Shown piece after piece: positions 6,316 to 33,126 of a stretch of 51,728 nucleotides of DNA. Origin of the DNA: a virus; IMG/VR virus record IMGVR_UViG_3300042945_002137, positions 1-51,728 of that record. One strand, 5' to 3'. The first letter of the stretch is position 1. The number at the start of each line of letters is the position of its first letter. The notes under the pieces were generated by a model. That model made no database searches. It had not been told where the DNA came from and saw only the letters and a list, made by a program, of their open reading frames with translations. A program made the translations under genes and the position numbers.

Positions 6316-7221
6316 ATGCAAGTAAAAGATCTATCACATCCAAAGAACAGCAAATCGCTGAATGAAAGCGTAGCTAAAACATTTGGTTATAAGTTAAATC
6401 TAGACGGGTTTTCAGATGCCCAATTAATGGTAGCACGAGACAAAATTGCTGAAAAATTAGCTACTTTCGAAAGCAGCCGTCAATACGATGCTGTGTACGA
6501 AAGTAACGAATATCATAAAGATCGTGCATTTTTGGATGTAATCTTACAGGCTCTTCAAGAAAGAAAACTAAACCCAGACGAAGAAGGCAAGCGTGAGAAG
6601 TATGTAAAAGGCATGAAGAAAGTTAAAGGCGACTTTAAAAAGCGTTACGGCGATCGTGGCGAAGAAGTAATGTATGCCACAGCTACTAAAATGGCCAAGA
6701 AAGAAAGTGTAGGCGAAGCAATGGATGTACTACGTCAGGCACTAAGTGAACAAGTTCTTACAGAAGGCGAAGAAGAAAAAGCAGCACTAATCATGTCCGC
6801 ACGTGACATGGTAGATAAGATTACAGGCTGGTTAGAAGACACAGCGTCTATGAAGTCCGAGACGTTATTAGAATTATTAGACTCTATAAGAGATGAAATG
6901 GGCAGTGATGTAAGTGGTCAATTTGAACAGAAAGTTAAACCAGCATTAGACGAAATTTATACAAGTTTAGAAACGACAAGAACTGCGTTAGCACAGGCTG
7001 TATCAGTATTAACAGGCGAAGAGGCTCCAGGAATGGGTGGCGAAACTCCAGCAGCTCCAGCAGCTCCAGGTGGATTAGAAGGTGAAGTTGCAGCAGTAGG
7101 AGACGAGTTTGCCGCATCTGCTCCAGCAGCAGGTGGCGAAGAAGCAGCAGGCAGAGCACGTAGAGAAAGTGTAGAATATAGTCGCAAGTTAGGCCAAATT
7201 TTAAACTCAAAAAAAAAGTAA
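6316..7221 (+). CDS. Conserved marine-phage protein, probably structural
   Basis: The 301-residue product follows a TAAATA box (6282) and the ribosome site TAGGGATAAAACG. Residues about 95-130 carry KYVKGMKKVKGDFKKRYGDR and the adjacent YATATKMAKK, a block I recall as widespread in marine phages and giant-virus-like proteins, of unknown role. A helical middle and a Gly/Ala/Pro-rich linker (about 235-275) precede a basic tail. A capsid-core or scaffold role is inference. Confidence 0.65.
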   Translation: MQVKDLSHPKNSKSLNESVAKTFGYKLNLDGFSDAQLMVARDKIAEKLATFESSRQYDAVYESNEYHKDRAFLDVILQALQERKLNPDEEGKREKYVKGMKKVKGDFKKRYGDRGEEVMYATATKMAKKESVGEAMDVLRQALSEQVLTEGEEEKAALIMSARDMVDKITGWLEDTASMKSETLLELLDSIRDEMGSDVSGQFEQKVKPALDEIYTSLETTRTALAQAVSVLTGEEAPGMGGETPAAPAAPGGLEGEVAAVGDEFAASAPAAGGEEAAGRARRESVEYSRKLGQILNSKKK

Positions 7222-7544
7222 TGGAAGGCACGGATGAATTAATCCGTGCTTTTAGAATTCTTCAAAAAAGAGCAAACAGCAAAGATAGTCAAGCTTCATA
7301 CTCATGGTCTGCCATTAGTAATATGATAGGAGATCAAGTTGGTATTGAGCTAAACTATGACAACATAAATCCTATTATTCAATCTACTCCTGAATTAAAA
7401 AAACTTATAAAAAGTTATAGTGGTAAAGGTGTAGTGTTGAACACCAAAGCTAAAGAGGCTCCTACAGAATTTGGACAAAGTCCTGGCGTTGATATGGGTG
7501 CTGCCAAATCTGCTGCCAAGAATGTATTACAACAACCAGGTTGA
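7221..7544 (+). CDS. Small unknown protein
   Basis: 107 residues; its ATG shares the A of the previous TAA, so expression is coupled. It is helical, with a soluble C-terminal tail rich in Ala and Lys. The last codons overlap the -35 box of the next promoter. Function unknown. Confidence 0.65.
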   Translation: MEGTDELIRAFRILQKRANSKDSQASYSWSAISNMIGDQVGIELNYDNINPIIQSTPELKKLIKSYSGKGVVLNTKAKEAPTEFGQSPGVDMGAAKSAAKNVLQQPG

Positions 7545-7569
7545 CATTAAGTAATAGTAACTTTATAAT
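7541..7569 (+). promoter_or_regulatory. Consensus sigma70-type promoter, predicted leaderless
   Basis: TTGACA (7541-7546), a 17-base spacer and TATAAT (7564-7569). The expected start of transcription, 7 bases after the -10, is 7576, the A of the next ATG. TAGTAAC (7555-7561) and GTTACTA (7570-7576) form an inverted repeat centred on the -10. Confidence 0.88.
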
Positions 7570-7575
7570 GTTACT

Positions 7576-8295
7576 ATGAAACTATTACAACCTAAATTTA
7601 ATTACTTAAAACTAGAACGCGACGAGTCATCTGGAAAACGATTATATGCATGTCCAGATGGCAGTCGTGTTCCTAGCGTTACTACTATTCTAGATAAAAC
7701 CAAACCAGCAGAAGCACGTGAAGCACTAGCCGCGTGGAAAAAAGCAGTAGGCGAAAAGAAAGCACAAGAAATTACAACCGAAGCTGCTGGCCGCGGAACA
7801 AGAATGCACAAGTTTCTCGAAGATTATATCAAAGGAGAAACACTAAAAGAAACAGTGACTAATCCTTATGCAGCACAAAGTTTGGTAATGGCACGTAAAG
7901 TCATTGAACTAGGTTTTCCTAATGTAGGAGAAGTATGGGGCAGTGAAGTTCCGTTGTATTTTCCAGAACTGTATGCAGGTACAACAGATTGTGTAGGTAT
8001 ACACGATGGTGAAGAAAGTATACTGGACTTCAAACAAACTAATAAACCTAAAAAAATAGAATGGATTGACGATTACTTTCTGCAACTTACTGCCTATGCT
8101 CTAGCACATAACGAAGTGCATGGTACTAATATTAGAAAAGGCGTAATTATGATGTGTGTTCGTCCACCAGAAATAGAGCCTGGAAAGTGGGGAGAACCAG
8201 AATATCAGCAGTTTATCTTAGAACCTAAAGATTTTGACTACTGGACAGAACGTTGGTGTGACAGGGTGTCTGAATACTACAAGCTAATCAGCTAA
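7576..8295 (+). CDS. PD-(D/E)XK nuclease, MGME1/Cas4-RecB-like
   Basis: This 239-residue protein has the exonuclease-type PD-(D/E)XK layout: GRGTRMHKFLEDY (about 75-87), GTTDCVG with the acidic metal ligand, LDFKQTNKPK (the D-x(n)-ExK-like motif, here DFKQ), and QLTAYALAHN as the conserved Q-x3-Y helix. The family includes mitochondrial MGME1-like and phage recombination exonucleases acting on single-stranded DNA ends. No Shine-Dalgarno precedes the ATG, which agrees with the leaderless promoter at 7541. Likely role: DNA processing, host DNA breakdown or recombination. Confidence 0.85.
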   Translation: MKLLQPKFNYLKLERDESSGKRLYACPDGSRVPSVTTILDKTKPAEAREALAAWKKAVGEKKAQEITTEAAGRGTRMHKFLEDYIKGETLKETVTNPYAAQSLVMARKVIELGFPNVGEVWGSEVPLYFPELYAGTTDCVGIHDGEESILDFKQTNKPKKIEWIDDYFLQLTAYALAHNEVHGTNIRKGVIMMCVRPPEIEPGKWGEPEYQQFILEPKDFDYWTERWCDRVSEYYKLIS

Positions 8296-10176: not shown

Positions 10177-12513
10177 ATGTCTAATATCACAGTAATAAAA
10201 AGAAACGGAAAAAAAGAAGCACTAACAATCGAAAAATGGCAGACACAGATTGCTAAAGTGTGTAGCGGTATAGCAGATGTTAGCCAAAGTATGATTGAAA
10301 TCAAAAGCCAGCCTCATTTCTATGATGGCATCACTACAAAAGAAATCGATGAAATTACACTAAGGGCTATTGTTGACTTAATCGATATCGAAAGCAATCC
10401 AGATTTAGGACACACTAATTATCAGTACGTAGCAGGCAAACAAAGATTAAGTATGTTACGTAAAGATGTATACGGAGGATATGAACCTCCTCGTCTATAT
10501 GAAATCGTAAAGAAGAATGTGGCCACAGGTCTTTACACACAAGAATTATTAAATTGGTACACAGAAGAAGATTGGAACAAAATGAATGATATGATAGATC
10601 ATTCAAAAGATGAGCAATACAGTTATGCTGCAATCGAGCAACTAATCGAAAAGTATCTAGTTAAGAATCGCAGCACAAAGGAAATATATGAAACTCCCCA
10701 AGTTCGATACATGGTCGCAGCAGCTACGGTCTTTCATCGTGAAGAGCCGAATCAAGCAAGGATGCGATATATTAAAGAATATTATACAGCGGCCAGCGAC
10801 GGTTTGTTTACTTTGGCTACTCCCGTTCTTGCTGGCTTGGGCACGCCTACCAAGCAGTTTAGTAGCTGTGTCCTTATTCGTAGCGATGACGACCTTGATA
10901 GTATCTTCGCTAGTGGAGAAATGATGGCTAAGTATGCCAGTAAACGTGCGGGGATTGGATTGGAAATTGGTCGCCTACGCCCATTGGGCTCCCCTATTCG
11001 CGGTGGCGAAATTATGCACACTGGTATGCTGCCTTTTTTAAAGAAATGGTTTGCTGACTTAAGGAGTTGTAGTCAAGGTGGAATACGCAATGCTAGTGCT
11101 ACTGTTTTTTATCCAATTTGGCATCATCAATTTGATGATCTTATCGTGCTTAAAAATAATCAAGGCACAGAAGAAACACGAGTACGACACATGGACTACG
11201 GCGTGGTGCTCAGTGCTTTCTTCTGGAGAAGGTTTAAGGATAAAGGGGTCATCACTTTCTTTGATCCCAATGAAGTACCAGACCTTTATGAAGCTTTCTA
11301 CAGAGACACGAAACGGTTTGAAGATCTATACACCAAGTACGAGAAAGTACCTAGTCTGCGCAAGAAAACTATCTCAGCAGAAGAAGTTTTTAAAGGTGGA
11401 ATTTTAAAAGAACGTACAGACACAGGACGTATCTATCTTGTGTTTATTGATAATGTGATGAATCAAGGACCATTCGATCCAGAATGGCACACTATCTATC
11501 AAAGTAATTTATGCTGTGAAATTTTACTGCCTACTAAGGCGTTTAAGAGATTAGATGATGAAGAAGGACGTATTGCCCTATGCACCTTGGGAAGTATCAA
11601 CTGGGGTGCCTTTCGTAATCCAGAAGATATGCGACGTGCTTGTCGCATTCTACAACGCAGTCTATGTAATATCTTGGACTATCAAGATTTCTTATCAATT
11701 CAAAGTAAACTAAGCAATGACGAAATTCAACCTTTGGGTATTGGTGTTACTAATCTTGCTTATTGGCATGCTAAACGTAATCTCAAATATGGAGAAGCCG
11801 ATGCATTGGGAGAGGTTAAGACCTGGATCGAGCATCAAGCTTACTACCTAACCGAAGCTACAGTTGAACTAGCCAAAGAAAGAGGCAAGTGTAAAGACAG
11901 TGATAGAACAAGATATGGACAAGGTATTTTTCCTTGGGAACTACGTGCAGAGGGTGTTAACGAATTAGCTGACTTCAGTCCTGAACTTGATTGGGAGCCT
12001 CTACGTGCTGAAATGAAACAGCACGGTGTTCGCAATGCTACACTAATGGCTATTGCTCCAGTCGAAAGTAGCAGTGTTGTTATAAACAGCACAAACGGTA
12101 TTGAGATGCCCATGAGCTTAATCAGTGTTAAGGAAAGTAAAGCAGGGTCGTTTACACAAGTGGTTCCTGAATATCACAGACTAAAAAACAAATATCAGCT
12201 GATGTGGGATCAGAGAGACTGTGCCGGTTATATCAAAACAGCAGCAGTGTTAGCAGCTTATGTAGATCAAAGTATTAGTACTAATACTTTCTATAATCCT
12301 GCTCATTATGCAGATCGTAAAGTTCCTACTACATTGATTGCTAAAAATCTAATGCAGGCACACTACTGGGGAATTAAGACTTTTTATTATAGTTTAATTA
12401 ATAAGACAGGTGTTAAACTACAAGAAGATCTCGGCGAGCCAAAGATGAATGGCTATCACGAAATTAATATGGATCTACTAGATGATGCCGACTGCGAGGC
12501 CTGTAAGTTATGA
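10177..12513 (+). CDS. nrdA: Ribonucleoside-diphosphate reductase alpha subunit
   Basis: 778 residues, full length for class I alpha. It reduces ribonucleotides to deoxyribonucleotides with NrdB. An ATP-cone-like region fills residues 1-90. The thiyl-radical cysteine is in SNLCCEI (C446, with N444 and E448 as partners). The redox pair is C231 (FSSCV) and C469 (CTLGSINW). The C-terminal shuttle pair is C773/C776 (CEAC). The start has only a weak ribosome site. It overlaps the next gene by 4 bases. A glutaredoxin reductant is encoded downstream at 15799. Confidence 0.97.
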   Translation: MSNITVIKRNGKKEALTIEKWQTQIAKVCSGIADVSQSMIEIKSQPHFYDGITTKEIDEITLRAIVDLIDIESNPDLGHTNYQYVAGKQRLSMLRKDVYGGYEPPRLYEIVKKNVATGLYTQELLNWYTEEDWNKMNDMIDHSKDEQYSYAAIEQLIEKYLVKNRSTKEIYETPQVRYMVAAATVFHREEPNQARMRYIKEYYTAASDGLFTLATPVLAGLGTPTKQFSSCVLIRSDDDLDSIFASGEMMAKYASKRAGIGLEIGRLRPLGSPIRGGEIMHTGMLPFLKKWFADLRSCSQGGIRNASATVFYPIWHHQFDDLIVLKNNQGTEETRVRHMDYGVVLSAFFWRRFKDKGVITFFDPNEVPDLYEAFYRDTKRFEDLYTKYEKVPSLRKKTISAEEVFKGGILKERTDTGRIYLVFIDNVMNQGPFDPEWHTIYQSNLCCEILLPTKAFKRLDDEEGRIALCTLGSINWGAFRNPEDMRRACRILQRSLCNILDYQDFLSIQSKLSNDEIQPLGIGVTNLAYWHAKRNLKYGEADALGEVKTWIEHQAYYLTEATVELAKERGKCKDSDRTRYGQGIFPWELRAEGVNELADFSPELDWEPLRAEMKQHGVRNATLMAIAPVESSSVVINSTNGIEMPMSLISVKESKAGSFTQVVPEYHRLKNKYQLMWDQRDCAGYIKTAAVLAAYVDQSISTNTFYNPAHYADRKVPTTLIAKNLMQAHYWGIKTFYYSLINKTGVKLQEDLGEPKMNGYHEINMDLLDDADCEACKL

Positions 12514-13061
12514 CATATAGTTTTATTAGAAATGTATTATTAGAAGGTAGACCTGATAAATTAGAAATTAAAAAACTGCCTTACGATTATGACGAACTTG
12601 ATCCAGCTATTTCTGAAGAGACAATAAGATATCATTACGGAAAATTGGCTAAGACATATGCTGAACGCTACAACAATAACGAAGGCGATCCAGTGTTCAA
12701 CGAAGCAGGAGTTTTTCTACACAATATTTTGTTTCAACAATATCAAGGACCAAGTGGGTCAAACAAACCTACAGGAAATATTTTAACTTTTATTGAAAAA
12801 CATTTTAAAAGTTTTGATAATTTCAAAAAAGAATTTGAAAAAGAAGCAATGAGTATACAAGGCAGTGGTTGGGTATATCTTAGCAAGAGCGGTAAGATTA
12901 AAAAAATTGTAAATCACGAAATTAAAAAAGATATAGTATTGTTAATCGATTGGTGGGAACATTCTTGGGCATTAGACTATCAATCAGATAAAAAGAAATA
13001 TTTAGAAAATCAATGGAAAATAATAAATTGGGATCACATCAATGAGCAAACAGCAATATAA
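12510..13061 (+). CDS. sod: Fe/Mn superoxide dismutase family protein
   Basis: 183 residues, slightly shorter than typical SodA/SodB. It keeps the family order: KLPYDYDELDPAISEETIRYHYGKL with the first metal His, FLHNILFQQYQG with the second His, GSGWVYL, and IDWWEHSWALDY supplying the Asp and His ligands. It should convert superoxide to peroxide and oxygen. It lies between and overlaps nrdA (4 bases) and nrdB (20 bases). That suggests protection of the radical-bearing reductase, which is inference. The N-terminal helix YSFIRNVLLEGRPDK is a phage-type extension. Confidence 0.88.
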   Translation: MTYSFIRNVLLEGRPDKLEIKKLPYDYDELDPAISEETIRYHYGKLAKTYAERYNNNEGDPVFNEAGVFLHNILFQQYQGPSGSNKPTGNILTFIEKHFKSFDNFKKEFEKEAMSIQGSGWVYLSKSGKIKKIVNHEIKKDIVLLIDWWEHSWALDYQSDKKKYLENQWKIINWDHINEQTAI

Positions 13062-14142
13062 TTTAAACACTAAGACAGACTATCTATCACGTAAGATGTT
13101 TTTAGATCCAGAAGGTCCTGTTACTATTCAACGATTTGAAGAAGTGAAATATCCTAAGATTCAAAAGATTGAACAGACAGCTAGAGGATTCTTTTGGGTA
13201 CCAGAAGAAATTAGTCTAACTAAAGATGCCGGAGATTTTAAAGAAGCCAGCGATGCAGTTAAACATATCTTTACCAGTAACTTGTTAAGACAGACAGCCT
13301 TAGACAGTTTGCAAGGGCGTGGACCCGCACAAGTTTTTACTCCTTGTGTTAGTTTGCCTGAATTAGAAGCACTAATGTACAACTGGAGTTTCTTTGAAAC
13401 TAATATTCATAGCCGTAGTTACAGCCACATTATTCGTAACATCTACAACGTGCCTAAGGAAGTGTTTAATACTATTCACGATACACAAGAAATAGTTGAT
13501 ATGGCCAGTAGTGTAGGCAAGTACTATGATTTATTACACAGACTAAATTGCCGTAAAGAACTGACAGAGAATGTAACAGAAATTGAACATGTCAAAGCAA
13601 TTTGGTTAGCATTGAACGCCAGCTATGCTTTAGAAGCTTTTAGATTTATGGTTAGCTTTGCTACAAGCTTGGCCATGGTAGAGAACAAGATCTTTATTGG
13701 CAATGGTAATATTATTAGTTTAATTTTACAAGACGAACTATTACATAAAGAATGGACTGCTATGCTTATCAATGCAGTGGTTAAAGAAGATGAAAGATTC
13801 GTTCGTGCCAAAATAGAATGTGAAGCAGAAGTATATGCTATGTATGAAGATGTAATCAGAGAAGAAAAAGCGTGGGCAGATTATTTGTTCAAAAAGGGTC
13901 CTGTAATTGGACTTAATGCAAATATCTTAAAAGATTTTGTAGATTACACAGCAGCCGCGGCTCTAAAAGAAATTGGCATTAAGTATCAAAGTCCTGCACC
14001 GAAAACTACACCAATACCTTGGTTCAACAAGCACAGCGACACTAGTAAGAAACAAACTGCCTTACAAGAGAACGAGTCGACTAACTATGTTATAGGTGTT
14101 ATGTCAGATGCTATAGATTATGAAGAGTTGCCAGTATTATAA
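13042..14142 (+). CDS. nrdB: Ribonucleoside-diphosphate reductase beta subunit
   Basis: 366 residues. It houses the diiron-tyrosyl radical used by NrdA. Visible ligands are D88 (LDSLQG), E119 and H123 (ETNIHSRSY), the Glu in LEAFRF, and DELLH; the radical tyrosine is Y127. The first Glu and His are separated by three residues (ETNIH), whereas the E. coli motif is ETIH, one residue shorter. The gene starts inside the end of the superoxide dismutase gene and its last base is the first base of the halogenase ATG. Confidence 0.96.
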   Translation: MSKQQYNLNTKTDYLSRKMFLDPEGPVTIQRFEEVKYPKIQKIEQTARGFFWVPEEISLTKDAGDFKEASDAVKHIFTSNLLRQTALDSLQGRGPAQVFTPCVSLPELEALMYNWSFFETNIHSRSYSHIIRNIYNVPKEVFNTIHDTQEIVDMASSVGKYYDLLHRLNCRKELTENVTEIEHVKAIWLALNASYALEAFRFMVSFATSLAMVENKIFIGNGNIISLILQDELLHKEWTAMLINAVVKEDERFVRAKIECEAEVYAMYEDVIREEKAWADYLFKKGPVIGLNANILKDFVDYTAAAALKEIGIKYQSPAPKTTPIPWFNKHSDTSKKQTALQENESTNYVIGVMSDAIDYEELPVL

Positions 14143-15347
14143 TGAAAAAATTAGCCATAGTTGGTGCTGGAACAGCCGGAATACAAGCATTGTGTCATTT
14201 TTTATCATACTTAGATGAAACATGGCAAGTAGTGTGTATTCATGACCCTTCTACGAAAATTTTTGGTATAGGAGAAAGTTCTAATCCTTCTTTCATCGCA
14301 GCTCTTCAAACTGGTGCAGATTTTGATCTAGTCTTTGATTTAGATAAATTAGACGGAACATTAAAGTTAGGAAGTCTATACAAAGATTGGAGAGAAGCTG
14401 ATTTTCTTAATCCGTTTTTAGCAGGATCTTTGGCGATTCACTTTGATTCGGAAAAATTGAAATCATTCATACTGCCTAGATTAGTAAAAAAATGGAAGGA
14501 AAAGTTATCTGTCATAGAAGGCAAGGTAACATCGGTAAATCAAACTAACGAATCTGTGTTTCTATCTATCAATAACATCGACTATTCTTTTGATTATGTA
14601 ATGGATTGCACAGGATTTCCTTCTAATTTCGAAAACTGCGTAGTCTTAGAAGATTTCACGGTAAATCATGCATTGATACATAATGTTAGACAACCCGGCG
14701 ACTGGCACTATACCGGACATACTGCTACTCCAGATGGGTGGATGTTTGAAATACCCTTAACTTTCAGAAGAAGTTATGGTTATATGTTTAATGACAAAAT
14801 TACATCTATAAATGATGCCCGAGCAAATTTTTCTCAACTCATTAATATACCTTTGGAACAATTAGATAACATCGAATACACTTTTAAGTCTTTTTATAGT
14901 AAAAATATTTTAGATAACCGAATTATAAAGAATGGCAATGCTGCAATATTCTTCGAACCATTATTTGCTAATTCTATTTTTAACTATGATAGAATTAATA
15001 GAATTTTCTTTGATTATATAACCCAGAAAATGTCTGCAGATAAAGTTGAATCTGATTTTCGATCTCTTGCAGAACAAGTTAGAGATATGATAGCTTACCA
15101 TTATATTGGAGGTTCTACATATGATACAGACTTTTGGAAAATTACTTCTGAAAAAACAAAACCAATAGTTTTCAACTCTGTTTCATTTAATTTTTTTAAA
15201 GATTCATTAAAAAATATAACTAAAAATAAAAGTTATAGTTATGGAACTGGTAATAGTTGGTGTTTTAATGAACCTGCACTACTATTATTAGATAAAAATT
15301 TTCAATACAATTTTTATGTAGATGGAACAGAACATTTTATAGTATGA
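14142..15347 (+). CDS. Flavin-dependent tryptophan-halogenase-like protein
   Basis: 401 residues, somewhat short for the family. It has an N-terminal FAD fold (IVGAGTAGIQALCHF), GIGESSNPSF matching the family's G-E-x-T/S-x-P segment, a conserved Lys region (KLGSLYKDW) and DCTGFPS. The diagnostic WxWxIP motif is present as GWMFEIPL, with Phe in place of the second Trp. Related genes occur in marine myoviruses. The reaction would be FADH2- and chloride-dependent halogenation of an aromatic; the substrate is unknown. It shares one base with nrdB's stop and overlaps the next gene by 4. Confidence 0.82.
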   Translation: MKKLAIVGAGTAGIQALCHFLSYLDETWQVVCIHDPSTKIFGIGESSNPSFIAALQTGADFDLVFDLDKLDGTLKLGSLYKDWREADFLNPFLAGSLAIHFDSEKLKSFILPRLVKKWKEKLSVIEGKVTSVNQTNESVFLSINNIDYSFDYVMDCTGFPSNFENCVVLEDFTVNHALIHNVRQPGDWHYTGHTATPDGWMFEIPLTFRRSYGYMFNDKITSINDARANFSQLINIPLEQLDNIEYTFKSFYSKNILDNRIIKNGNAAIFFEPLFANSIFNYDRINRIFFDYITQKMSADKVESDFRSLAEQVRDMIAYHYIGGSTYDTDFWKITSEKTKPIVFNSVSFNFFKDSLKNITKNKSYSYGTGNSWCFNEPALLLLDKNFQYNFYVDGTEHFIV

Positions 15348-15802
15348 AAACACTAAGAGAATATATTAATTTGGTCACAGAAGAAGCCATAGAAGATAAT
15401 TGGTTTAAAAGTGGAGGATTTAAAACTTATAAAAAACCAAATCCTGTCCATTATGAAACAGCTACAGATTCAGGAACAATCGATACATTAGAAGGTCCTG
15501 TTAGATATGAAGCTGGTCATAAAATTATTACTGGCCCTAAAGGAGAAAAATATCCTGTAAGTCCAGAATCGTTTTATGACAAATATGATGTAGATGATGA
15601 AAATACAGCAACACCTAAAAAAATAATTAAGTATGCTAAATTAGCAGACCATGATGGAGTATTACATACATCTTGGGGAGATCTAGAATACACAAAAGGA
15701 AATGATTATATAGTAAGACATGGCGAAGGAGATTATGGTGCAGTTAAAAAAGACATCTTTCATCAAACTTACGATACATCAAATATAAAGGATAAAGAAT
15801 GA
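15344..15802 (+). CDS. Unknown protein with an internal duplication
   Basis: 152 residues. Residues about 46-82 (DTLEGPVRYEAGHKIITGP and on) and about 107-145 (HTSWGDLEYTKGNDYIVRHG and on) are two copies of one small beta-rich unit of the pattern G-x-(V/L)-x-Y-x-x-G-x-x-(I/Y)-(I/V), each ending F(Y/H)xxYD. The N-terminus MKTLREYINLVTE is a common marine-myovirus leader. Function unknown. It overlaps the neighbours by 4 bases each. Confidence 0.7.
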   Translation: MKTLREYINLVTEEAIEDNWFKSGGFKTYKKPNPVHYETATDSGTIDTLEGPVRYEAGHKIITGPKGEKYPVSPESFYDKYDVDDENTATPKKIIKYAKLADHDGVLHTSWGDLEYTKGNDYIVRHGEGDYGAVKKDIFHQTYDTSNIKDKE

Positions 15803-16636: not shown

Positions 16637-16665
16637 TTGACTTTCGACCAACAAATCGTTATGTT
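16637..16665 (+). promoter_or_regulatory. Sigma70-type promoter, predicted leaderless
   Basis: TTGACT (16637-16642), 17 bases, TATGTT (16660-16665). The -10 ends exactly 6 bases before the ATG at 16672, the same spacing as at 7576, so transcription should begin on the start codon. Confidence 0.7.
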
Positions 16666-16671
16666 TAATTC

Positions 16672-17271
16672 ATGAAGAAAAAAATTATTTTAACTGATGC
16701 CGACGGTGTAATTTTAGACTGGGAATGGGCATTTAGAATTTGGATGCAAGAACGAGGATATAAACTTATCCCTAATGGGCATTACAGCTATCACTTTCAC
16801 GATCATTTCGAAAATTTAACTCAAGAAGATTCTAAGAAAATGGTAAGAACTTTTAACGAAAGTGCTGCCATAGGTTTCCTTCCTGCATTAAGAGACGCTG
16901 CACACTATGTTAAGAGACTACATGAAGAACATGGTTATCAATTTCATTTAATCACTAGTCTAAGTAAAGATGAAAATGCACAGCGTCTTAGAGAAATGAA
17001 TATAAAAAAAATCTTTGGATCTAACACATTTGAAAAATTTATTTTTTTAGATACTGGCGGAGATAAAGACGAGGTTTTATCTAATTATAAAGACAGCAAC
17101 TTATTCTGGATTGAAGATAAGCCAGAAAACGCAGATGTTGGATACAAATTAGGTTTAAGATCTATTTTAATGGAACACGGACATAATATGAATCATGCGT
17201 GTTCTTATCCAATTGTAAAAAATTGGAAAGATATATATAACATTATAACCCAAGGAGAAAATAATGAGTAA
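16672..17271 (+). CDS. HAD-family phosphatase, 5'(3')-deoxyribonucleotidase-like
   Basis: 199 residues. HAD motif I is TDADGVILDW (nucleophile D9, acid D11), motif II LITS, and motif III IEDKPENADVG. The size and helical cap fit NT5C-like deoxyribonucleotidases, which dephosphorylate deoxynucleoside monophosphates. A role in balancing nucleotide pools next to ribonucleotide reductase is likely. No Shine-Dalgarno is seen, matching the leaderless promoter. It overlaps the next gene by 8 bases. Confidence 0.82.
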   Translation: MKKKIILTDADGVILDWEWAFRIWMQERGYKLIPNGHYSYHFHDHFENLTQEDSKKMVRTFNESAAIGFLPALRDAAHYVKRLHEEHGYQFHLITSLSKDENAQRLREMNIKKIFGSNTFEKFIFLDTGGDKDEVLSNYKDSNLFWIEDKPENADVGYKLGLRSILMEHGHNMNHACSYPIVKNWKDIYNIITQGENNE

Positions 17272-20125: not shown

Positions 20126-20154
20126 TTGACATTTGAAACCTTCTATAGTATTAT
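20126..20154 (+). promoter_or_regulatory. Sigma70-type promoter inside a terminator
   Basis: TTGACA (20126-20131), 17 bases, TATTAT (20149-20154). The -10 begins in the hairpin's left arm and runs into its loop. Transcription should start near 20161, inside the right arm, so new transcripts cannot form the terminator. Confidence 0.85.
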
Positions 20155-20181
20155 ATGTACTGTAGAAGGTTTTTTATTTTT
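20136..20181 (+). terminator. Rho-independent terminator of the lysis operon
   Basis: The left arm 20136-20150 pairs with the right arm 20158-20172 (15 pairs, one G-U) across the loop TTATATG, followed by a T-rich tract to 20181. It is physically interlocked with the promoter at 20126. Confidence 0.88.
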
Positions 20182-24409: not shown

Positions 24410-26287
24410 ATGAGCAAAATCATTGGTATCGATTTGGGTACAACAAACAGTTGTGTAGCAGTAATTGAAAATGGCACAGTTAAAATTATTGAAAACAGTG
24501 AAGGTGCCAGAACTACTCCAAGTATCGTCGCATACACAAACGAAGAAATTTTAGTTGGAGCACCAGCTAAACGTCAAGCAGTAACTAATCCTAAAAACAC
24601 AATCTATGCAGCCAAGCGTTTAATCGGCCGCAAATTTAAAGAACAAGCAGTACAAAAAGATATCGATTTGATGCCTTACGAAATCACAGAGGCTAAAAAT
24701 GGCGATGCATGGATTCGTGCTAACGACAAAGAATTAGCACCTCCTCAAATTTCAGCAGAAGTTCTACGTAAAATGAAAAAAACTGCTGAAGACTATCTTG
24801 GTGCAGAAGTTACTCAAGCAGTTATCACCGTACCTGCATACTTCAACGACAGTCAACGTCAAGCAACTAAAGATGCTGGTAAGATTGCTGGATTAGAAGT
24901 TCTACGTATTATTAACGAGCCTACCGCAGCAGCTCTTGCATATGGTGTAGATAAGACTGACAAGAAAGATCGTAAAGTTGCTGTTTATGATCTAGGTGGT
25001 GGTACTTTTGATGTTTCCATTATTGAAATCGCCAATGTAGATGGCGATAAACAAATCGAAGTACTAAGCACAAATGGTGATACATTCCTTGGTGGCGAAG
25101 ATTTTGATAATCGTATTATGGATCATCTTGTTTCCGAATTTAAAAAGGAACAAGGAATTGATTTGAGTAAAGACGTTATGGCACTACAGCGTCTAAAAGA
25201 AGCAGCAGAACGTACAAAGATTGAATTAAGTAATAGCACACAAACTGACGTTAACCTTCCTTATATTACCGCAGATGCTACAGGTCCTAAACATCTTAAT
25301 ATTAAAGTAACTCGTGCAAAATTAGAGAGCTTAGTCGAAGATTTGATTCAACGTAGTCTTGCTCCTTGTCGTCAAGCATTAAATGATGCAAAAGTAACTG
25401 CCGCCGATATCGATGAAGTTATTTTAGTTGGTGGTCAAACACGTATGCCTAAGGTGCAAGAAGAAGTTGAAAAACTATTTGGCAAGACACCACGCAAAGA
25501 TGTTAACCCTGATGAGGCAGTGGCTGCTGGTGCTGCGGTACAAGGTGCTGTGCTAGGAGGAGATCGTAAAGACGTTCTACTATTAGATGTCACTCCATTA
25601 AGTCTTGGTATTGAAACTATGGGCGGTATCTTTACTAAATTAATTACTAAGAATACAACTATTCCTACCAAAGCTAGTCAAGTGTTTAGTACTGCGGAAG
25701 ATAATCAGCCAGCAGTTACTATCAAAATTGCACAGGGTGAGCGTGAAATGTTCGCTTATAATAAATCATTAGGCGAATTTAACTTAGAAGGTATTGCACC
25801 TGCACGTAGAGGTGTTCCTCAAATCGAAGTTACAATTGATATCGATGCCAACGGCATTATGCATGTTAGTGCTAAAGATAAAAACACAGGTAAGGAAAAT
25901 AAGATTACCATTAAGAGTGACAGTGGTTTAACTGCTGAAGAAATCGAACGTATGGTACAAGATGCAGAAGTTAATGCAGAAGAGGATCGTAAACAACGTG
26001 AATTAATCGAGGCACGTAACAACGCCGAAGGTATAGTACATAATCTTCGTAATGATATGAAAGAAGTAGAATCAAATCTTACCGAAGAAGAAAAAACAAA
26101 GATTAACGAGGCTTGTCAGGCAGCAGAAGAGGCACATAAAGGCACAGATAAAGAAAAAATTAATGAATGTATTTCAAAGCTTTTCGAAGTTCAACAAATC
26201 ATTGCAACAGCGAAAAGTAAAACCGAATCTTCAAGTGGAAATTCCGACGAAGTTGTAGTTGATGCAGAATTCAAGGAAACCACTTAA
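24410..26287 (+). CDS. dnaK: Chaperone DnaK (Hsp70)
   Basis: 625 residues, full length. ATP-binding signatures are [10 protein letters not shown] (N-terminus), [15 protein letters not shown] (about 190-205) and [12 protein letters not shown] (about 340). The substrate domain and linker ([15 protein letters not shown]) follow, and the lid ends in a typical acidic tail (VVVDAEFKE). It refolds proteins using host DnaJ/GrpE. Full-length DnaK is uncommon in phages. It could also serve the phage IscU, whose LPPVK motif is the HscA site; this is inference. Confidence 0.98.
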
Positions 26288-26292
26288 GACTT

Positions 26293-26343
26293 ATATTTGA
26301 CGCCTTTGGGTCAAATATTGTATCTTGCTTAATTTAAGGAGAA
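26293..26343 (+). promoter_or_regulatory. hsp20 leader hairpin and shared chaperone box
   Basis: ATATTTGAC (26293-26301) pairs with GTCAAATAT (26310-26318), 9 pairs around an 8-base loop. Directly after it comes ATCTTGCTTAATTTAAGGAG (from 26322), nearly the same as upstream of dnaK. The T-run is too poor for a strong terminator. Confidence 0.6.
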
Positions 26344-26348
26344 ATCAA

Positions 26349-26798
26349 ATGACAATGAATGGTACAGTAGCACGTTTTGATACAACAGCATTAAACAAAG
26401 CTTTAGTAGGATTTGACAGATTGTTCGATACTTTCGAATCAAGATTTGCAAATCAGTTATCTACTAACTATCCTCCGCATAATATTGTTAAAACTGACGA
26501 CACACATTATCAAATTGAAATAGCAGTTGCTGGTTTCAAAAAACATGAGATAAATGTTGAAGTTGAACAAGACATGCTAACAGTGAGGGGAGAATCAGAA
26601 GCAACTAACGAAACTTTAACTAGACAATACCTACACCGAGGTTTAAGTAGCAGAAGTTTTGTAAGAAGTTGGCAACTAGCAGAACATATGGTTGTAAATG
26701 GAGCCGAGATTAAAGACGGAATCTTAACTATTAGCCTTGAATATATTATTCCAGAAGAAAAGAAAGCTCGAGTAATTGACATTGTAGAAGTTAAGTAA
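26349..26798 (+). CDS. hsp20: Small heat shock protein Hsp20/IbpA family
   Basis: 149 residues from ATG 26349 (AAGGAGAAATCAA). The alpha-crystallin domain runs from about 45 to 140 (NIVKTDDTHYQIEIAVAGFK; LTVRGE; DGILTISLE), with flexible ends. It holds unfolding proteins for DnaK. Its last codons contain the -35 of the clpS promoter and its stop lies just before the -10. Confidence 0.94.
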   Translation: MTMNGTVARFDTTALNKALVGFDRLFDTFESRFANQLSTNYPPHNIVKTDDTHYQIEIAVAGFKKHEINVEVEQDMLTVRGESEATNETLTRQYLHRGLSSRSFVRSWQLAEHMVVNGAEIKDGILTISLEYIIPEEKKARVIDIVEVK

Positions 26799-26804
26799 TA
26801 TAAT
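26776..26804 (+). promoter_or_regulatory. Consensus sigma70-type promoter for clpS-ho-bilin reductase
   Basis: TTGACA (26776-26781), 17 bases, TATAAT (26799-26804). Predicted start near 26811 falls in the left arm of the adjacent terminator, so transcripts from here lose half the stem. Confidence 0.88.
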
Positions 26805-26805
26805 A

Positions 26806-26835
26806 AGGGGAAAGTTTAACTTTCCCCTAATTTTT
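26806..26835 (+). terminator. Terminator after hsp20
   Basis: GGGGAAAG (26807-26814) pairs with CTTTCCCC (26820-26827) across TTTAA, followed by TAATTTTT. Only read-through RNA from hsp20 carries the whole stem. Confidence 0.85.
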
Positions 26836-26847
26836 ATGGAGGCAGTG

Positions 26848-27153
26848 ATGGCAGTAGATTCTGATGTAAAAATCGACGAAAAAATTAAACAAAAATATCA
26901 AGAACCGAAAAAGTGGAAAGTCATATTTCTAAACGACGATTACACTCCGATGGATTTCGTTATAGAAGTATTAACAGAAGTTTTTAAACATAGCCAAGAA
27001 ACTGCAAAAGAGATCACTATGGAGATACATAATAGTGGTAGTGGTATTGCAGGTGTTTATACATTCGACATAGCAGAAGCCAAAGCTGTCGAAGTAACCA
27101 CAGTTGCTAGATCACAAGGATTCCCACTCCAAGTTAAAATGGAAGAAGAATGA
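26848..27153 (+). CDS. clpS: ClpS adaptor protein
   Basis: 101 residues from ATG 26848, 5 bases after GGAGG; the in-frame ATG at 26836 lies before that ribosome site. KVIFLNDDYTPMDFVIEVL and MEIHNSGSGIAGVYTFDIAE are the ClpS core, with the NDD and MxIH residues that bind N-terminal degron residues. It directs N-degron substrates to host ClpAP. Phage ClpS could redirect host proteolysis. It overlaps the heme oxygenase gene by 4 bases. Confidence 0.95.
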   Translation: MAVDSDVKIDEKIKQKYQEPKKWKVIFLNDDYTPMDFVIEVLTEVFKHSQETAKEITMEIHNSGSGIAGVYTFDIAEAKAVEVTTVARSQGFPLQVKMEEE

Positions 27154-27692
27154 GTTTACGTGAAATAACCAAAGAGTTACATGCAGACGCAGAAAGAACT
27201 ATATTTGCTAAAAAACTTGTAACAGGATCATTTACTAAAGAAGAATATGCTAACTATCTTTGGCAAATGGTTCTCGTTTATAACGGAATAGAAACTTCGG
27301 CAAATAGTCAAGGTATGTTAAAAAACTTACCTGACATTGAACGAGCACACAAAATCTATCAAGACTGTATCGAACTAGTAGGTAATAATCATAATCTTAA
27401 GTGGTTGCCAGAAACTATTGAATATTATCAATATGTACTAGCTCTTAACTATGACACTGAAAGACGTCATTTAGTTAAAGCACACTTGTATTGTCGTCAT
27501 ATGGGTGATTTATTTGGCGGACAAATTATTGCTAAAAAATGTCCAGGCCAAGGCCGCTTTTATCAATTCAAAGATGCTGAAAATTTGAAAACTGCTATAA
27601 GAGCAGAGTTAACAGATGACTTAGGCGACGAAGCCAAAGTTGCTTTTCAATGGGCAATTAAAATTATGAAAGCTTTGGTAAAAGATGAGTGA
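27150..27692 (+). CDS. ho1: Heme oxygenase
   Basis: 180 residues. The proximal heme His is in KELHADAER (H11) and the distal helix is GDLFGGQIIAKK. It opens heme to biliverdin, carbon monoxide and iron, using ferredoxin in this type of system. It overlaps clpS by 4 and the bilin reductase by 8 bases, forming one operon. Confidence 0.95.
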   Translation: MSLREITKELHADAERTIFAKKLVTGSFTKEEYANYLWQMVLVYNGIETSANSQGMLKNLPDIERAHKIYQDCIELVGNNHNLKWLPETIEYYQYVLALNYDTERRHLVKAHLYCRHMGDLFGGQIIAKKCPGQGRFYQFKDAENLKTAIRAELTDDLGDEAKVAFQWAIKIMKALVKDE

Positions 27693-28365
27693 TGTTTGGA
27701 ATACACTAATTGGCATACAGAATTTACTAGAAGACAAATTTAATGAAACCGGCAGAGAAATACATGAGCCTGGCATGGATCGTTTTAACCAGCCTGGTTG
27801 GGTTAATCGCGTATGGAGTGGCGAACGTTATCGCAGAGCACACATAGATGTCGTTGATGCCAGAGAAACAAAAGGTCTTTGGATGATGCATTGCTGTGTT
27901 TTTCCACATATCCATAATCCTGCTCCAATATATGGATTTGATGTAATAGCCGGTAAGAACAAAATTACCGGTTGTTTTCACGATTTCAGTCCAGCAGGCG
28001 ATCACGAACATCCCTTAATAGATTGGTTCTCTGCTGAAGCGGCCAAATTACGGTGGAATAAAACTAGAAAATTACCAGATTGGGCAGAGCGTATTTTTAC
28101 TGGTAGTATGATAGCTGCGGGCAACGTTCAAGACGAGAATGAACTAAATCAGATATTTGATATCGCAAATCGTAGTATAAGACACTATCTGAATTGTGTA
28201 GCCGAATCTAATTTTACACATAAAAACACTATACCTAATCAGAACTATTACTGCGAAAATCAAAAACAAAACCCGCATACACCCAAAGTTATGGCTAGTT
28301 TAGGGCTCGATGAAGAAGATGTGCGTGTTTTTATACAGGACTGCTTGTTCCCTGAAATACGCTAA
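27685..28365 (+). CDS. Ferredoxin-dependent bilin reductase, PcyX-like
   Basis: 226 residues of the FDBR fold: AHIDVVDARETKGLWMMHCC, VFPHIHNPAPIYGFDVIAG, CFHDFSPAG, then a C-terminal AESNFTHKNTIPNQNYYCEN segment. FDBRs reduce biliverdin to phycobilins. A marine-phage clade named PcyX, found beside ho1 outside cyanophages, was reported to make phycoerythrobilin; I assign this clade by context, not alignment. A non-photosynthetic host would have no antenna use for bilins. Confidence 0.85.
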   Translation: MSDVWNTLIGIQNLLEDKFNETGREIHEPGMDRFNQPGWVNRVWSGERYRRAHIDVVDARETKGLWMMHCCVFPHIHNPAPIYGFDVIAGKNKITGCFHDFSPAGDHEHPLIDWFSAEAAKLRWNKTRKLPDWAERIFTGSMIAAGNVQDENELNQIFDIANRSIRHYLNCVAESNFTHKNTIPNQNYYCENQKQNPHTPKVMASLGLDEEDVRVFIQDCLFPEIR

Positions 28366-28375
28366 ATATTAGACT

Positions 28376-29779
28376 ATGCGAGCAAATGAATTCTTAGTAG
28401 AAGCTACCCTATCTAGCGGCACAACTTTCACTAGTTGGCCAACATATCTTCAAGGACTTTTATCCGGCAACATAAGTTTAGGTACTTCGGGTGAAAAAGC
28501 ACAAGGTTTAGAATTAGATTTAGAATCTAAAAATGCAGTTAAATCACTAATTGATGGAGTTTATACTGCAACAGACAAAGGGCAATATGCTCTGCAAATA
28601 GCAAATACTGTTTTAACTTTTACCAATGGAACACAGGCAAAAATAAGTCATATATTTAAAAGTCCTGGACTTAAAGGTTCAACAGATGCTATTCCTGCTC
28701 TTCAAACAAGAACTGCTGGATTAGTAGCAGAAGCACTACTTGGTGTAGCCATGTATGCCAAATTAATTTCAAGAGGCGGTGACCTTACAGCAGAAATTAC
28801 TTCAGAGGATGTCTGGAATATTGTAGGTAGAATTAAACCACAAGGATCAGATTCTTTAGTAGACAACGTAAAAGACATTGATAATAAAGTTTCAGATTCT
28901 ATAAGCCTTGTTATTACTCTAGCAACAGATATTCAAGAAGTTTTAACGAATCCAAAATATCAGTCGATGTTTAAAGAAAAAGTCCAGAGTTGGTGTAACT
29001 ATGTGAATGCAGATCTTTCACAAAAATATGCAGACACTTTGTACAAAAATAATAGACCAGATAACGTTACTATTAGATTAGCAGGTAAAGAAGGCGGCAA
29101 GGTCGATGTGCTGATAAATGTTCTTGACAAAGAAGGTCGTCCAACTAAAAAATTAGCACAAGTAAAGTTAAGTGTTAAATTATCTGACAGTCTAATTGGT
29201 CAACAAGCAAGAGGTAAAACACACGAAGAAGTATATGTTAATTTAGAAAAATTATTTGATCCTTTAGGTGTAGATTTATCTTTAAAGAAAGCTAAAATTT
29301 TAAAAGCAGCATTGACATCAGGCATACATAATCAATTTGCAGGTGCAATGGAAGTTGCATATAAAGAAGCTGCTAATCAGTTATCTAGAATTGCTAAGGG
29401 AGAAAAAAATGATGTGTCCTTAGCACAACGAGTTGCAAAATTAACAGACTATCATGCCACAGCAAATGACCCTGAAATACAAGTAATCGAACAAAGCCCT
29501 GGCGGTGACTATAGATTGTTAAACTACAAAGGGTTAAAACAAGTTTTTGCTAAAAATAATATAGATGTAGCTATTGATTATTCTGCAGGAGTTTCATCCA
29601 AAATTCAGGAAGGCTCTATGCCTAGAATAATTTTTTATGATAAAAATACTCCTGGTAAAGCTGGAAAATTAGTTGAGATTAGATACAGGGCAAGAGGAAA
29701 TTATGCTAATCATATAATTGAGCCTGGGTCGTTGCTAAAGGAATTAGCAGCATATAATAGATTTAAGAAATCTAAGTAA
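28376..29779 (+). CDS. Large unknown protein
   Basis: 467 residues starting MRANEFLVEA, a leader type common in marine-myovirus proteins. Residues about 235-270 (VDVLINVLDKEGRPTKKLAQ, then VKLSVK) have an acidic-x(n)-QVKxSxK pattern that could be a degenerate PD-(D/E)XK core; this is weak. The rest is helical. TAAATA ends 7 bases before the ATG with no Shine-Dalgarno. Function unknown. Confidence 0.7.
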   Translation: MRANEFLVEATLSSGTTFTSWPTYLQGLLSGNISLGTSGEKAQGLELDLESKNAVKSLIDGVYTATDKGQYALQIANTVLTFTNGTQAKISHIFKSPGLKGSTDAIPALQTRTAGLVAEALLGVAMYAKLISRGGDLTAEITSEDVWNIVGRIKPQGSDSLVDNVKDIDNKVSDSISLVITLATDIQEVLTNPKYQSMFKEKVQSWCNYVNADLSQKYADTLYKNNRPDNVTIRLAGKEGGKVDVLINVLDKEGRPTKKLAQVKLSVKLSDSLIGQQARGKTHEEVYVNLEKLFDPLGVDLSLKKAKILKAALTSGIHNQFAGAMEVAYKEAANQLSRIAKGEKNDVSLAQRVAKLTDYHATANDPEIQVIEQSPGGDYRLLNYKGLKQVFAKNNIDVAIDYSAGVSSKIQEGSMPRIIFYDKNTPGKAGKLVEIRYRARGNYANHIIEPGSLLKELAAYNRFKKSK

Positions 29780-29787
29780 ATAAAATT

Positions 29788-30129
29788 ATGAAAACACTAC
29801 TAGCTGCCATCTTACTGGCCACTACAGCCGTGGCAGCTACAGCTGAACCTCGATCAAAACAAGTTAAGTTCGTGTGTGCAAGTTTTGAAGATCTTGAAGC
29901 GACCATAGAAAGATACGGTGAAAAAATGGTTATAGCTACACAAGCTCCTAACGAACTAACTGTAAACATACTTTATGTAAATTTAGAAACACAAACTTCA
30001 AGCTGGATTTTACATGATTTACGAACAGACGAATATTGTATGGTCGGCGTAGGTAAAGCTATACACATTCCAGATGATAGTCCGCTTAAACAGGACTCTG
30101 TGAAAGGAACAAGAATAATTTATAAGTAA
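29788..30129 (+). CDS. Secreted small protein
   Basis: 113 residues. The signal peptide MKTLLAAILLATTAVAATA is followed by a compact soluble domain with two cysteines (FVCASF, EYCMVG) likely to form a periplasmic disulfide. No family recognised. TAAATA ends exactly 5 bases before the ATG; no Shine-Dalgarno. A strong terminator overlaps its stop. Confidence 0.72.
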   Translation: MKTLLAAILLATTAVAATAEPRSKQVKFVCASFEDLEATIERYGEKMVIATQAPNELTVNILYVNLETQTSSWILHDLRTDEYCMVGVGKAIHIPDDSPLKQDSVKGTRIIYK

Positions 30130-30154
30130 GCCTGGAAATTCCAGGCTTTTTTTT
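30128..30154 (+). terminator. Rho-independent terminator
   Basis: AAGCCTGGA (30128-30136) pairs with TCCAGGCTT (30140-30148) across a 3-base loop, then T to 30154. Confidence 0.93.
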
Positions 30155-30164
30155 GGAGTGAAAT

Positions 30165-30245
30165 ATGACATGGTTCGCACATAGACCTAAAAAATACCCA
30201 GTACCACCCTCACCCCCAGAGCCACACAGAACACCGCAAAGATAA
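30165..30245 (+). CDS. Proline-rich micro-protein, 26 residues
   Basis: An ATG follows TTGGAGTGAAAT with a proper ribosome-site distance. The 26-residue product (TWFAHRPKKYPVPPSPPEPH and on) has eight prolines and five Lys or Arg. Pro-rich basic peptides can bind ribosomes or SH3-like folds. Function unknown. Confidence 0.5.
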   Translation: MTWFAHRPKKYPVPPSPPEPHRTPQR

Positions 30246-30257
30246 AATAAATACTGA

Positions 30258-30866
30258 ATGAGATTCAGTGAAATTAAAGAAACTGTAGAAGACAGTTCAA
30301 TGATCAATCGTTTGGCCAATGCTGTGGCCAAATGGATGTATCAAAATGAACCAGCAGAATATCCTGTTCAATCTATTGGAAAAATGACAGGTATTAAAGA
30401 TACTCCTTTAAGTAAATTAGGAATTACATTTGATTACCTAGAAAAAGATACAGTAGCAGAATATCATAGAGAACACGAAAGTAAACCTATGATTGTTGTA
30501 AATCTTGATGAATGGCACGATGAAGATTATGCCAGCATTGCCGAATATGTAGCACATGAATTAAGACACGCATTAGACGATGTGAAATTTAAAGGTAAAC
30601 ATCATGTAAGTTACTGGGCAGCACAAGATAGATATCAGCAGCCTAAAAATAAAGATGAACCTTACTGGAGTAAACCCAGTGAAATAAATGCTCGTGTTCA
30701 ACAAGCATTGCACAATGTAGATTATATTAAAAGAGATAATCCAGGAGCCAGTATAAAAGAGTTATGGCCCGAAATTAAAGATATGTTAGATGAATTGAAA
30801 CTAACAGAATATCCTGGATATGAAAGAATTGTTAAACGAGTGCTTGCCTACGCCACGCAAGATTAA
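30258..30866 (+). CDS. Predicted zinc metallopeptidase (HExxH)
   Basis: 202 residues. HELRHALDD (about residues 97-105) is an HExxH zinc site, and a downstream Glu in SEINARVQQA could be the third ligand, as in minigluzincin-type phage proteins. The ATG lies in a perfect hairpin: ACTGAAT (30253-30259) pairs with ATTCAGT (30263-30269). The 3' end overlaps the minus-strand desaturase by 35 bases. Confidence 0.68.
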   Translation: MRFSEIKETVEDSSMINRLANAVAKWMYQNEPAEYPVQSIGKMTGIKDTPLSKLGITFDYLEKDTVAEYHREHESKPMIVVNLDEWHDEDYASIAEYVAHELRHALDDVKFKGKHHVSYWAAQDRYQQPKNKDEPYWSKPSEINARVQQALHNVDYIKRDNPGASIKELWPEIKDMLDELKLTEYPGYERIVKRVLAYATQD

Positions 30867-31545
30867 AGAATTCTAATATCTTAAACCACATCCAACCTAT
30901 ATCAAATTCCCACCACTTAGAACTTAGTTTAGGATTAGCTGGATTTTCATGATGATTATTATGTAATTCCTCGCCACCTATTATGATTCCCCATGGAACA
31001 ATATTAGTGCTTGAATCGTCAGTATCGGTGTTACGGTAACCAAAATAATGTCCTAGGCCGTTAATAACACCAGCAGCCCAAAGAGGAATCCATAACATTT
31101 GTACTCCCCACACAATAAAACCAGCAAGGCCAAAAAGAACAAGGTCAATGACCAACATCAAAAGAATCCCTAACCAGTTGTGGGGAGTATAAATGTTACG
31201 TTCTATCCAATCGTCTGGAGTACCTGCTCCATACGAGTTGATCATATCTTTATCTTTAGCAGCTTGACTGTAAAGGAATGCACCATAAAAAAGTACATAA
31301 AAAATACCATATACTTTTGGGCTGTGTGGATCTTCTAATCCATCGGTAAATCTGTGATGCTTTCGATGTACGGCTACCCATTGTTTAGTTATCATGCCAG
31401 TGGTAAGCCATAACCAAAATCTCATAAAGTGTTTTGCCACAGGATGAAATTCGATTCCTCTATGTGCTTGACTACGGTGTAAAAAGAGAGTGACGCAGAC
31501 TATGGTGATATGTGTCATCACCAGTGTTGCAATAATTGTATACAT
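30832..31545 (-). CDS. Fatty-acid (acyl) desaturase
   Basis: 237 residues with the three desaturase histidine boxes: HRSQAH (about 23-28), HRKHH (about 60-64) and HNNHH (about 196-200), plus four hydrophobic membrane segments. It resembles delta-9 acyl-CoA or acyl-lipid desaturases, which insert a double bond using oxygen and a diiron centre. It would raise membrane fluidity of the host. It is on the opposite strand from most of the window, and its 3' end overlaps the zincin gene tail to tail. Confidence 0.92.
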   Translation of the reverse strand: MYTIIATLVMTHITIVCVTLFLHRSQAHRGIEFHPVAKHFMRFWLWLTTGMITKQWVAVHRKHHRFTDGLEDPHSPKVYGIFYVLFYGAFLYSQAAKDKDMINSYGAGTPDDWIERNIYTPHNWLGILLMLVIDLVLFGLAGFIVWGVQMLWIPLWAAGVINGLGHYFGYRNTDTDDSSTNIVPWGIIIGGEELHNNHHENPANPKLSSKWWEFDIGWMWFKILEFFNLAWRRQALV

Positions 31546-31552
31546 TAGTTAC

Positions 31553-31693
31553 TTATCTACCTTGACCGCGGTATCGTTTAAAACTTTTCTTTTCTTGTTT
31601 ATTCATAGTGCTTGTTTTAATTTTACCGCCTTGTTTGCTTAGTTTTACAATAGGAGTATGAGCTGCTACTCCGGTACCTTTTGCTTTAGCCAT
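31553..31693 (-). CDS. Small basic protein, 46 residues
   Basis: Starts after AAGGGGAAATAA and ends 7 bases before the desaturase ATG, so the two are co-transcribed. The sequence is Lys/Gly/Gln-rich (AKAKGTGVAAHTPIVKLSKQ, ending KRYRGQGR). It resembles small basic proteins of marine phages; function unknown. It overlaps the end of the Cys-rich frame by 8 bases. Confidence 0.7.
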   Translation of the reverse strand: MAKAKGTGVAAHTPIVKLSKQGGKIKTSTMNKQEKKSFKRYRGQGR

Positions 31694-31802
31694 TTATTTC
31701 CCCTTCGTTATCTTTGCAATCTGGACATAGGCATTCATTACAATCGCAATCGTCTGTTAAACAACTATGTCCGCAATGTTTATGACATCCACAAGAGCAT
31801 TT
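31686..31802 (-). pseudogene. Cys-rich metallothionein-like frame without a start codon
   Basis: Read on the minus strand, this frame encodes 37 residues from Cys at 31799 with ten Cys and three His (CSCGCHKHCGHSC, then DDCDCNECLCPDC). This density is typical of metal-binding peptides and is unlikely by chance. The frame is closed just upstream by TAA and has no ATG, GTG or TTG. An ATG at 31825 opens MSYIKPNK in another frame; removing two bases near 31800 would fuse them. So it is frameshifted, wrongly assembled, or starts at ATA. Confidence 0.5.
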
Positions 31803-31846
31803 ATTTGGTTTAATGTAAGACATATTATCTTCAAAAACATGCATTA

Positions 31847-31854
31847 TAAATACA
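31847..31854 (+). promoter_or_regulatory. T4-type late promoter box
   Basis: TATAAATA, the exact T4 late-promoter consensus, 37 bases before the 31891 gene. Predicted start near 31860. Confidence 0.6.
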
Positions 31855-31890
31855 CTCCTAGAGACTGTATTTATTTCCGCAGGATTTTAT

Positions 31891-32427: not shown

Positions 32428-32434
32428 ATATTTT

Positions 32435-32557: not shown

Positions 32558-32558
32558 A

Positions 32559-32750: not shown

Positions 32751-32759
32751 AAATAAATT

Positions 32760-32867: not shown

Positions 32868-32868
32868 T

Positions 32869-33107: not shown

Positions 33108-33126
33108 AATTTCTATAAGTACGTAA

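Follow-up and report, generated by a model that had tools for sequence, protein, structure and literature searches.

The nuclease locus and its phage

The locus analyzed here comprises an upstream gene, a promoter, an inverted repeat, and a nuclease gene, all on the + strand of a viral record of 51.7 kb (the window, that is, the whole stretch of 51,728 nucleotides that was analyzed). Table 1 shows the coordinates of all features, together with a second promoter of the same type elsewhere in the window. The nuclease gene encodes a PD-(D/E)XK exonuclease resembling RecB and MGME1; its product matched Pfam PDDEXK_1 above the family cut-off, had MGME1 as the nearest solved structures (E 2e-14), and preserved the motif residues H78, D138, D151-x-K153, Q170, and Y174, which were invariant among 15 sequences. 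No terminator-like sites were listed on the + strand between positions 1579 and 7935, and the upstream open reading frame (ORF) ends close to the nuclease ATG; therefore, read-through into the nuclease gene is expected. The same proximity was found among relatives bearing the promoter, in which the upstream ORF ended at most 90 nt from the nuclease ATG in 70 of 74 cases and the TGA within the -35 hexamer was the upstream stop in 37 of 74.

TABLE 1 Features of the nuclease locus and of the second promoter with the same distance to its start codon
Feature	Positions	Strand	Remarks
Upstream gene, 107 aa, without family match	7221-7544	+	Ends inside the -35; proposed source of read-through transcription
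Possible outer helix AGGUUG / CAACCU around the hairpin	7539-7593	+	Read-through RNA only
-35 hexamer TTGACA	7541-7546	+	Includes the upstream gene's stop codon, TGA (7542-7544)
Spacer, 17 nt, between hexamers	7547-7563	+	
Inverted repeat	7554-7577	+	Arms 7554-7561 and 7570-7577; 8-nt loop holds the -10
-10 hexamer TATAAT	7564-7569	+	Sits in the inverted-repeat loop; conserved in relatives
Discriminator GTTACT between -10 and ATG	7570-7575	+	
Nuclease start codon ATG	7576-7578	+	6 nt past the -10; protein N terminus conserved from here
PD-(D/E)XK exonuclease, 239 aa	7576-8295	+	PHROG 298 (E 1e-54); Pfam PDDEXK_1; MGME1 structures
Second leaderless arrangement, TTGACT-N17-TATGTT-N6-ATG	16637-16674	+	9/12 consensus; ATG at 16672
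PHROG 420 protein, 199 aa	16672-17271	+	Relatives annotated as phosphatase; served by the 16637 promoter

The order of virion-like genes, exonuclease, and nrdA is the same as in the jumbo phages 121Q, GAP32, RaK2, and CBB, and near relatives of the window were found on contigs of 165 to 400 kb. Given this gene order and the large contigs of its near relatives, the window is likely a fragment of a 121Q/RaK2/GAP32-like jumbo phage. No near DNA relatives of the window were found among named phages. A phage-encoded permuted tmRNA of the betaproteobacterial type (32646 to 33109) hints at a betaproteobacterial host, which remains only a possibility. Host-like genes were located in 10177 to 15802 and 24410 to 39530, coding for NrdA/NrdB, an Fe/Mn superoxide dismutase, a tryptophan halogenase-like protein, HSP70, two radical SAM proteins, and a phosphate-binding-like PBP. 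The tRNA-rich end of the window (47157 to 50350) has three perfect sigma70 consensus promoters, of which the one at 50322 precedes a tRNA-Glu.

Promoter and probable leaderless arrangement

The nuclease promoter matches the sigma70 consensus at 12 of 12 positions with a spacer of 17 nt, which meets the criterion of TTGACA and TATAAT 16 to 18 nt apart. Six such perfect 12/12 N17 sites occur in the window, all of them on the + strand (7541, 18653, 26776, 47157, 47241, and 50322), versus ca. 0.04 expected over both strands from base composition. When two mismatches were allowed, the pattern was no commoner than in shuffled sequences (18 versus 14.4), and therefore only the near-perfect sites are informative. 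Transcription from sigma70 promoters usually starts 6 to 8 nt past the -10, so +1 should fall on or next to A7576; the assignment of A7576 as +1 is an inference from this spacing in the sequence alone.

We then surveyed the upstream regions of nuclease relatives (345 loci, giving 151 distinct upstreams). Among 80 viral relatives, the spacer diverged, but TTGACA-N17-TATAAT kept a distance of 5 to 7 nt to the ATG. A sigma70-type promoter located 5 to 8 nt before the ATG was present in 74 of the 104 distinct upstreams whose nuclease was at least 50% identical, namely, 34/41 at ≥70% identity, 36/54 at 60 to 70%, and 4/9 at 50 to 60%, and in only 3/21 (40 to 50%) and 1/26 (<40%) of those of distant relatives. 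The same test was passed by 0.6% of 18,987 control ATGs. A Shine-Dalgarno (SD) core preceded the start codon in a single one of the 74 promoter-bearing upstreams, and where the aligned start was shifted (L027 and L036), the ATG moved along and the 6-nt distance was preserved. Together, this conservation shows that the short distance between promoter and ATG is not due to chance. The arrangement extends to the Pseudomonas aeruginosa phages MIJ3 and PA5oct, which have TTGACA-N17-TATAAT-N7-ATG before the nuclease (65470 to 65508 of LR588166 in PA5oct); no published transcription starts were found for PA5oct. One lineage (L016, L045, and L439) is without the standard nuclease promoter and displays a perfect or near-perfect hairpin farther upstream of the ATG, e.g., AGAGGTATGC-N7-GCATACCTCT.

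In three large related contigs (365, 400, and 278 kb), strong promoters fell into two groups by their distance to the following ATG, 5 to 7 nt and ca. 17 to 35 nt, with almost no promoters in between, and a decoy with the reversed motif did not show the 5- to 7-nt peak. With the two conserved gene families excluded (a few members of the second escaped the filter) and distinct promoters pooled, 21 promoters were found at 5 to 7 nt versus 5.4 expected. Of 70 leaderless promoters, 1 was accompanied by an SD core, compared with 78 of the 117 leadered ones. Directly before the ATG, T or C was found in 61 of the 70 leaderless promoters, as would be expected if the A of the ATG is the initiating purine. 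The two-group distribution indicates that leaderless genes form a class of their own in these related jumbo phages. Other leaderless genes were seen in the related large contigs L185, L186, L187, and L219, including DnaJ-like, holo-ACP synthase-like, and 6-phosphogluconate dehydrogenase-like genes, as judged by N-terminal sequence alone. The family of the gene served by the 16637 promoter was leaderless in 26 of 48 distinct upstreams, which places this promoter in the same class.

The nuclease gene meets the sequence criterion for a leaderless gene (absence of an SD, and a -10 whose end lies ca. 5 to 7 nt from the start codon). Because the hexamers, their spacing, and the distance to the ATG are conserved while the spacer diverges, and because an SD is missing and promoter-to-ATG distances are two-peaked in related phages, we consider it likely that the nuclease mRNA is leaderless; both its 5' end and its leaderless translation are inferred. 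The initial annotation had placed TTGACA-N17-TATAAT so as to end 6 bases before the ATG, which held exactly (7541 to 7578), and had predicted a leaderless nuclease mRNA, which is supported by the comparison, with the start site itself still inferred in the absence of 5' end mapping. Its claim that the 16637 promoter lies at the identical distance from its ATG also held (6 nt), though that promoter reaches only 9/12 of the consensus.

A predicted hairpin over the start region of read-through RNA

The inverted repeat has the core TAGTAAC (7555 to 7561) and GTTACTA (7570 to 7576) plus one further pair, A7554/T7577. The initial annotation had described a repeat over the -10 and the first base of the start codon, which held and could be extended by that pair; it had given the repeat no role, and this turned out to be the most informative feature of the locus. 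By folding, read-through RNA (7535 to 7600) reached -15.6 kcal/mol (z, -3.8), with an 8-bp stem that takes the A and U of the AUG, while an RNA starting at A7576 left its first 36 nt open. Transcripts from the promoter itself begin downstream of the 5' arm and so are unable to fold into the hairpin. The evidence for an outer helix around the hairpin is weak, since coding imposes a constraint of its own on the 3' side, and we regard it as no more than possible.

Comparable hairpins were predicted in relatives from quite different arms, such as TAATGTCGTAGTG with CACTATGACATTA (L388), ATAAGGTCATATAGT with ACTGTATGACCTTAT (L249), and ATGGTGCAAGTG with TACTTGCACCAT (L413). At least 7 pairs between the upstream part and the start region were found in 57 of 74 relatives, with ca. 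35 unrelated 5' arms among them, and the helix reached the AUG or beyond in 62 of the 64 cases in which 5 or more pairs were formed. The MIJ3 hairpin was weaker yet present (-12.1 kcal/mol; z, -2.3). As a control, upstream parts were swapped between relatives, with the discriminator and codons kept. The cost of opening the start was 8.2 kcal/mol in native sequences versus 4.4 in swaps (z, 15.6; n = 74), and when only sequences <60% alike were considered (n = 49), the z values were 13 against swaps and 11.4 against shuffled spacers. The mean cost of exposing the start was 7.0 kcal/mol for the read-through RNA versus 0.4 for the leaderless RNA. The mean pairing probability of the AUG was barely above that of swaps (0.62 versus 0.56; z, 2.1); folding thus shows that the gain lies in the stability of the whole start region and not in the pairing of the AUG itself.

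The excess of start-region pairing was absent in the 16637 family (z, 1.2), in other leaderless genes (-0.8), and at leadered promoters (0.9), and the effect was not found in nuclease homologues without the promoter. A hairpin lock for the 16637 gene was accordingly rejected, with none over its start. A strong hairpin was missing in about a quarter of the nuclease lineages (e.g., L378, L405, and L433), and an Rfam search at the nuclease promoter site gave no match. A palindrome centered on the -10 was also considered as a general feature of leaderless promoters and was discarded, given that the excess was only weak (arms of ≥6, 7 versus 2.5; P = 0.013; n = 63) and that leadered promoters showed a similar one. 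A strong palindrome signal required inclusion of the start codon and the initial codons of the gene, and it was confined to the nuclease.

Two other combinations of promoter and hairpin were observed in the window. At 20126 to 20180, a 17-bp hairpin with a T run after it (-22 kcal/mol; z, -7.0) encloses the near-consensus promoter TTGACA-N17-TATTAT; RNA made from this promoter would be without the 5' arm, so incoming transcription would terminate and the promoter's own would escape. The same promoter-in-terminator arrangement was found near 2694 in a relative (L190). At 26776 to 26840, a perfect promoter has a hairpin with a T run (GGGGAAAGTT-TAA-CTTTCCCC) directly behind it; the start of this promoter falls in the 5' arm, and a ClpS-like gene comes next. 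Terminators straddling promoter starts occurred at 3 of 216 promoters versus 25 of 4,320 control positions, too few for a general feature to be claimed.

Comparison with known systems

In phage T4 e (lysozyme), soc, 49, I-TevI/II/III, and segB and in Aeh1 mobE, a hairpin sequesters the initiation site on upstream-initiated transcripts and is relieved by an internal promoter (PMC2988022, PMC3014915). The nuclease fulfilled the criterion for this type of control, by folding only: its start was hidden in transcripts initiated farther upstream and accessible in those of the inner promoter. As in the T4 e/I-TevI group, the RNA of the inner promoter is without the 5' arm, and transcripts that begin upstream have their initiation site covered by a fold; several members of that group encode nucleases, as here. 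However, their inner promoters are middle or late and give RNAs with an SD, whereas the nuclease has a sigma70 consensus, an expected leaderless RNA, and its 5' arm between the -35 and the -10. Inferring from the sigma70-type promoter, the timing of the nuclease switch is likely reversed relative to that of the T4 genes. A T4-type late promoter was rejected; the late motif TATAAATA is rare in the window and absent at the nuclease site.

A -10 placed ca. 6 nt before the ATG without an SD is also found in lambda cI (PMC9031893), in the Deinococcus-Thermus -10-motif genes (PMC12340547), and at the second promoter of pvuIIC (PMC2997769). Unlike all of these, the nuclease has a full -35 and a start predicted to be locked in read-through RNA, and we found no report of this combination in the open-access literature searched. 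Translation of the IS10 and IS50 transposases is known to be inhibited by fold-back on read-through RNA; there too, external transcripts are folded over the start and the element's own transcript is not. They differ in being transposons, SD led, and guarding against fortuitous outside promoters, with no lytic phage program. The exonuclease genes of 121Q, RaK2, GAP32, and CBB share the gene order and have a promoter-like TATAAT at the same place, but the distance from -10 to ATG is 13 to 17 nt and an SD-like sequence is present, so by sequence they are not leaderless.

Proposed switch and alternatives

In the mechanism that we propose, host sigma70-type RNA polymerase would initiate on A7576 or immediately beside it; the resulting mRNA would have 5'-AUG as its first bases and would be translated without an SD. 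Transcripts from the upstream gene cluster would carry the promoter as RNA, in which the spacer would pair with the discriminator and the start codon, and this hidden AUG without an SD would give little nuclease. Nuclease synthesis would be restricted to the activity of this one promoter, probably in early or middle infection, and long late mRNAs would not contribute to it. We regard it as likely that the inverted repeat acts as a read-through lock within a self-contained 37-bp expression switch. For this switch, the sequence, conservation, complementarity, absence of an SD, and specificity to the nuclease gene are shown; the +1, leaderless translation, timing, and silencing are inferred, and early firing in particular is assumed from the promoter sequence. 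A reason for caution about the lock is pvuIIR, where the hairpins predicted ahead of the gene proved to be without effect on testing (PMC2997769).

The main alternative keeps the leaderless promoter and takes the repeat as a DNA operator, over which a dimeric protein would cover the -10 and repress. In its favor, the repeat has its center close to the -10 in the window as well as in many of the relatives, the pairs are mostly Watson-Crick, which gives high DNA symmetry, and I-TevI autorepresses its late promoter (PMC2988022). Against it, the arms differ by lineage, the center and loop vary, and the arms often run into codons. Moreover, G·T mismatches outnumbered A·C mismatches in the palindromic arms (34 versus 14), where composition predicts fewer G·T (P = 1e-4), which points to sense RNA since G·T mismatches pair there, and sense RNA was more stable than antisense beyond the control (-0.91 versus -0.32; standard deviation, 0.19). 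An operator, for instance of I-TevI-like autorepression, thus appears unlikely, and one for a shared repressor was rejected, given that the palindrome occurs once in the window and differs among lineages. The mismatch bias and the strand difference favor an RNA element as the likely one, without excluding a role of the DNA.

Two further alternatives seem improbable. The promoter could be leaderless and the hairpin real, the latter serving for protection of the 3' end of the upstream mRNA or as a processing site. Hairpins can protect mRNA 3' ends, and this one comes directly after the upstream stop codon; however, protection needs no start codon in the helix, which nearly always extends to the AUG, and homologues without the promoter are also without the hairpin. 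Alternatively, the nuclease could come mainly from a long polycistronic RNA or from coupling to the upstream gene, with the near promoter of minor importance. The same-strand cluster, the upstream stop ca. 32 nt before the ATG, and the SD-like sequence before the ATG in coliphage relatives speak for this, but no SD is present in 73 of 74 upstreams, the promoter was kept while the spacer diverged, and the start region is folded in read-through RNA.

We therefore retain the read-through lock as the preferred reading. A bolder one, which we can neither favor nor dismiss, is that promoter, lock, and start codon are a single 37-bp element with all other transcription silenced in cis; if true, its timing would be opposite to that of the T4 lysozyme switch, with expression off during transcription of the late cluster.

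For phages, most knowledge of leaderless messages has come from isolated examples, among them lambda cI, and here such messages appear as a recognizable class in jumbo phages. The nuclease relatives belong to a large family of giant bacteriophages, most of them uncultured, and the arrangement is kept over a large divergence that includes cultured P. aeruginosa phages, which makes it testable. If the lock is true, the hairpin would uncouple a gene inside a long transcription unit without a terminator, and only the transcript from its own promoter would be translatable.
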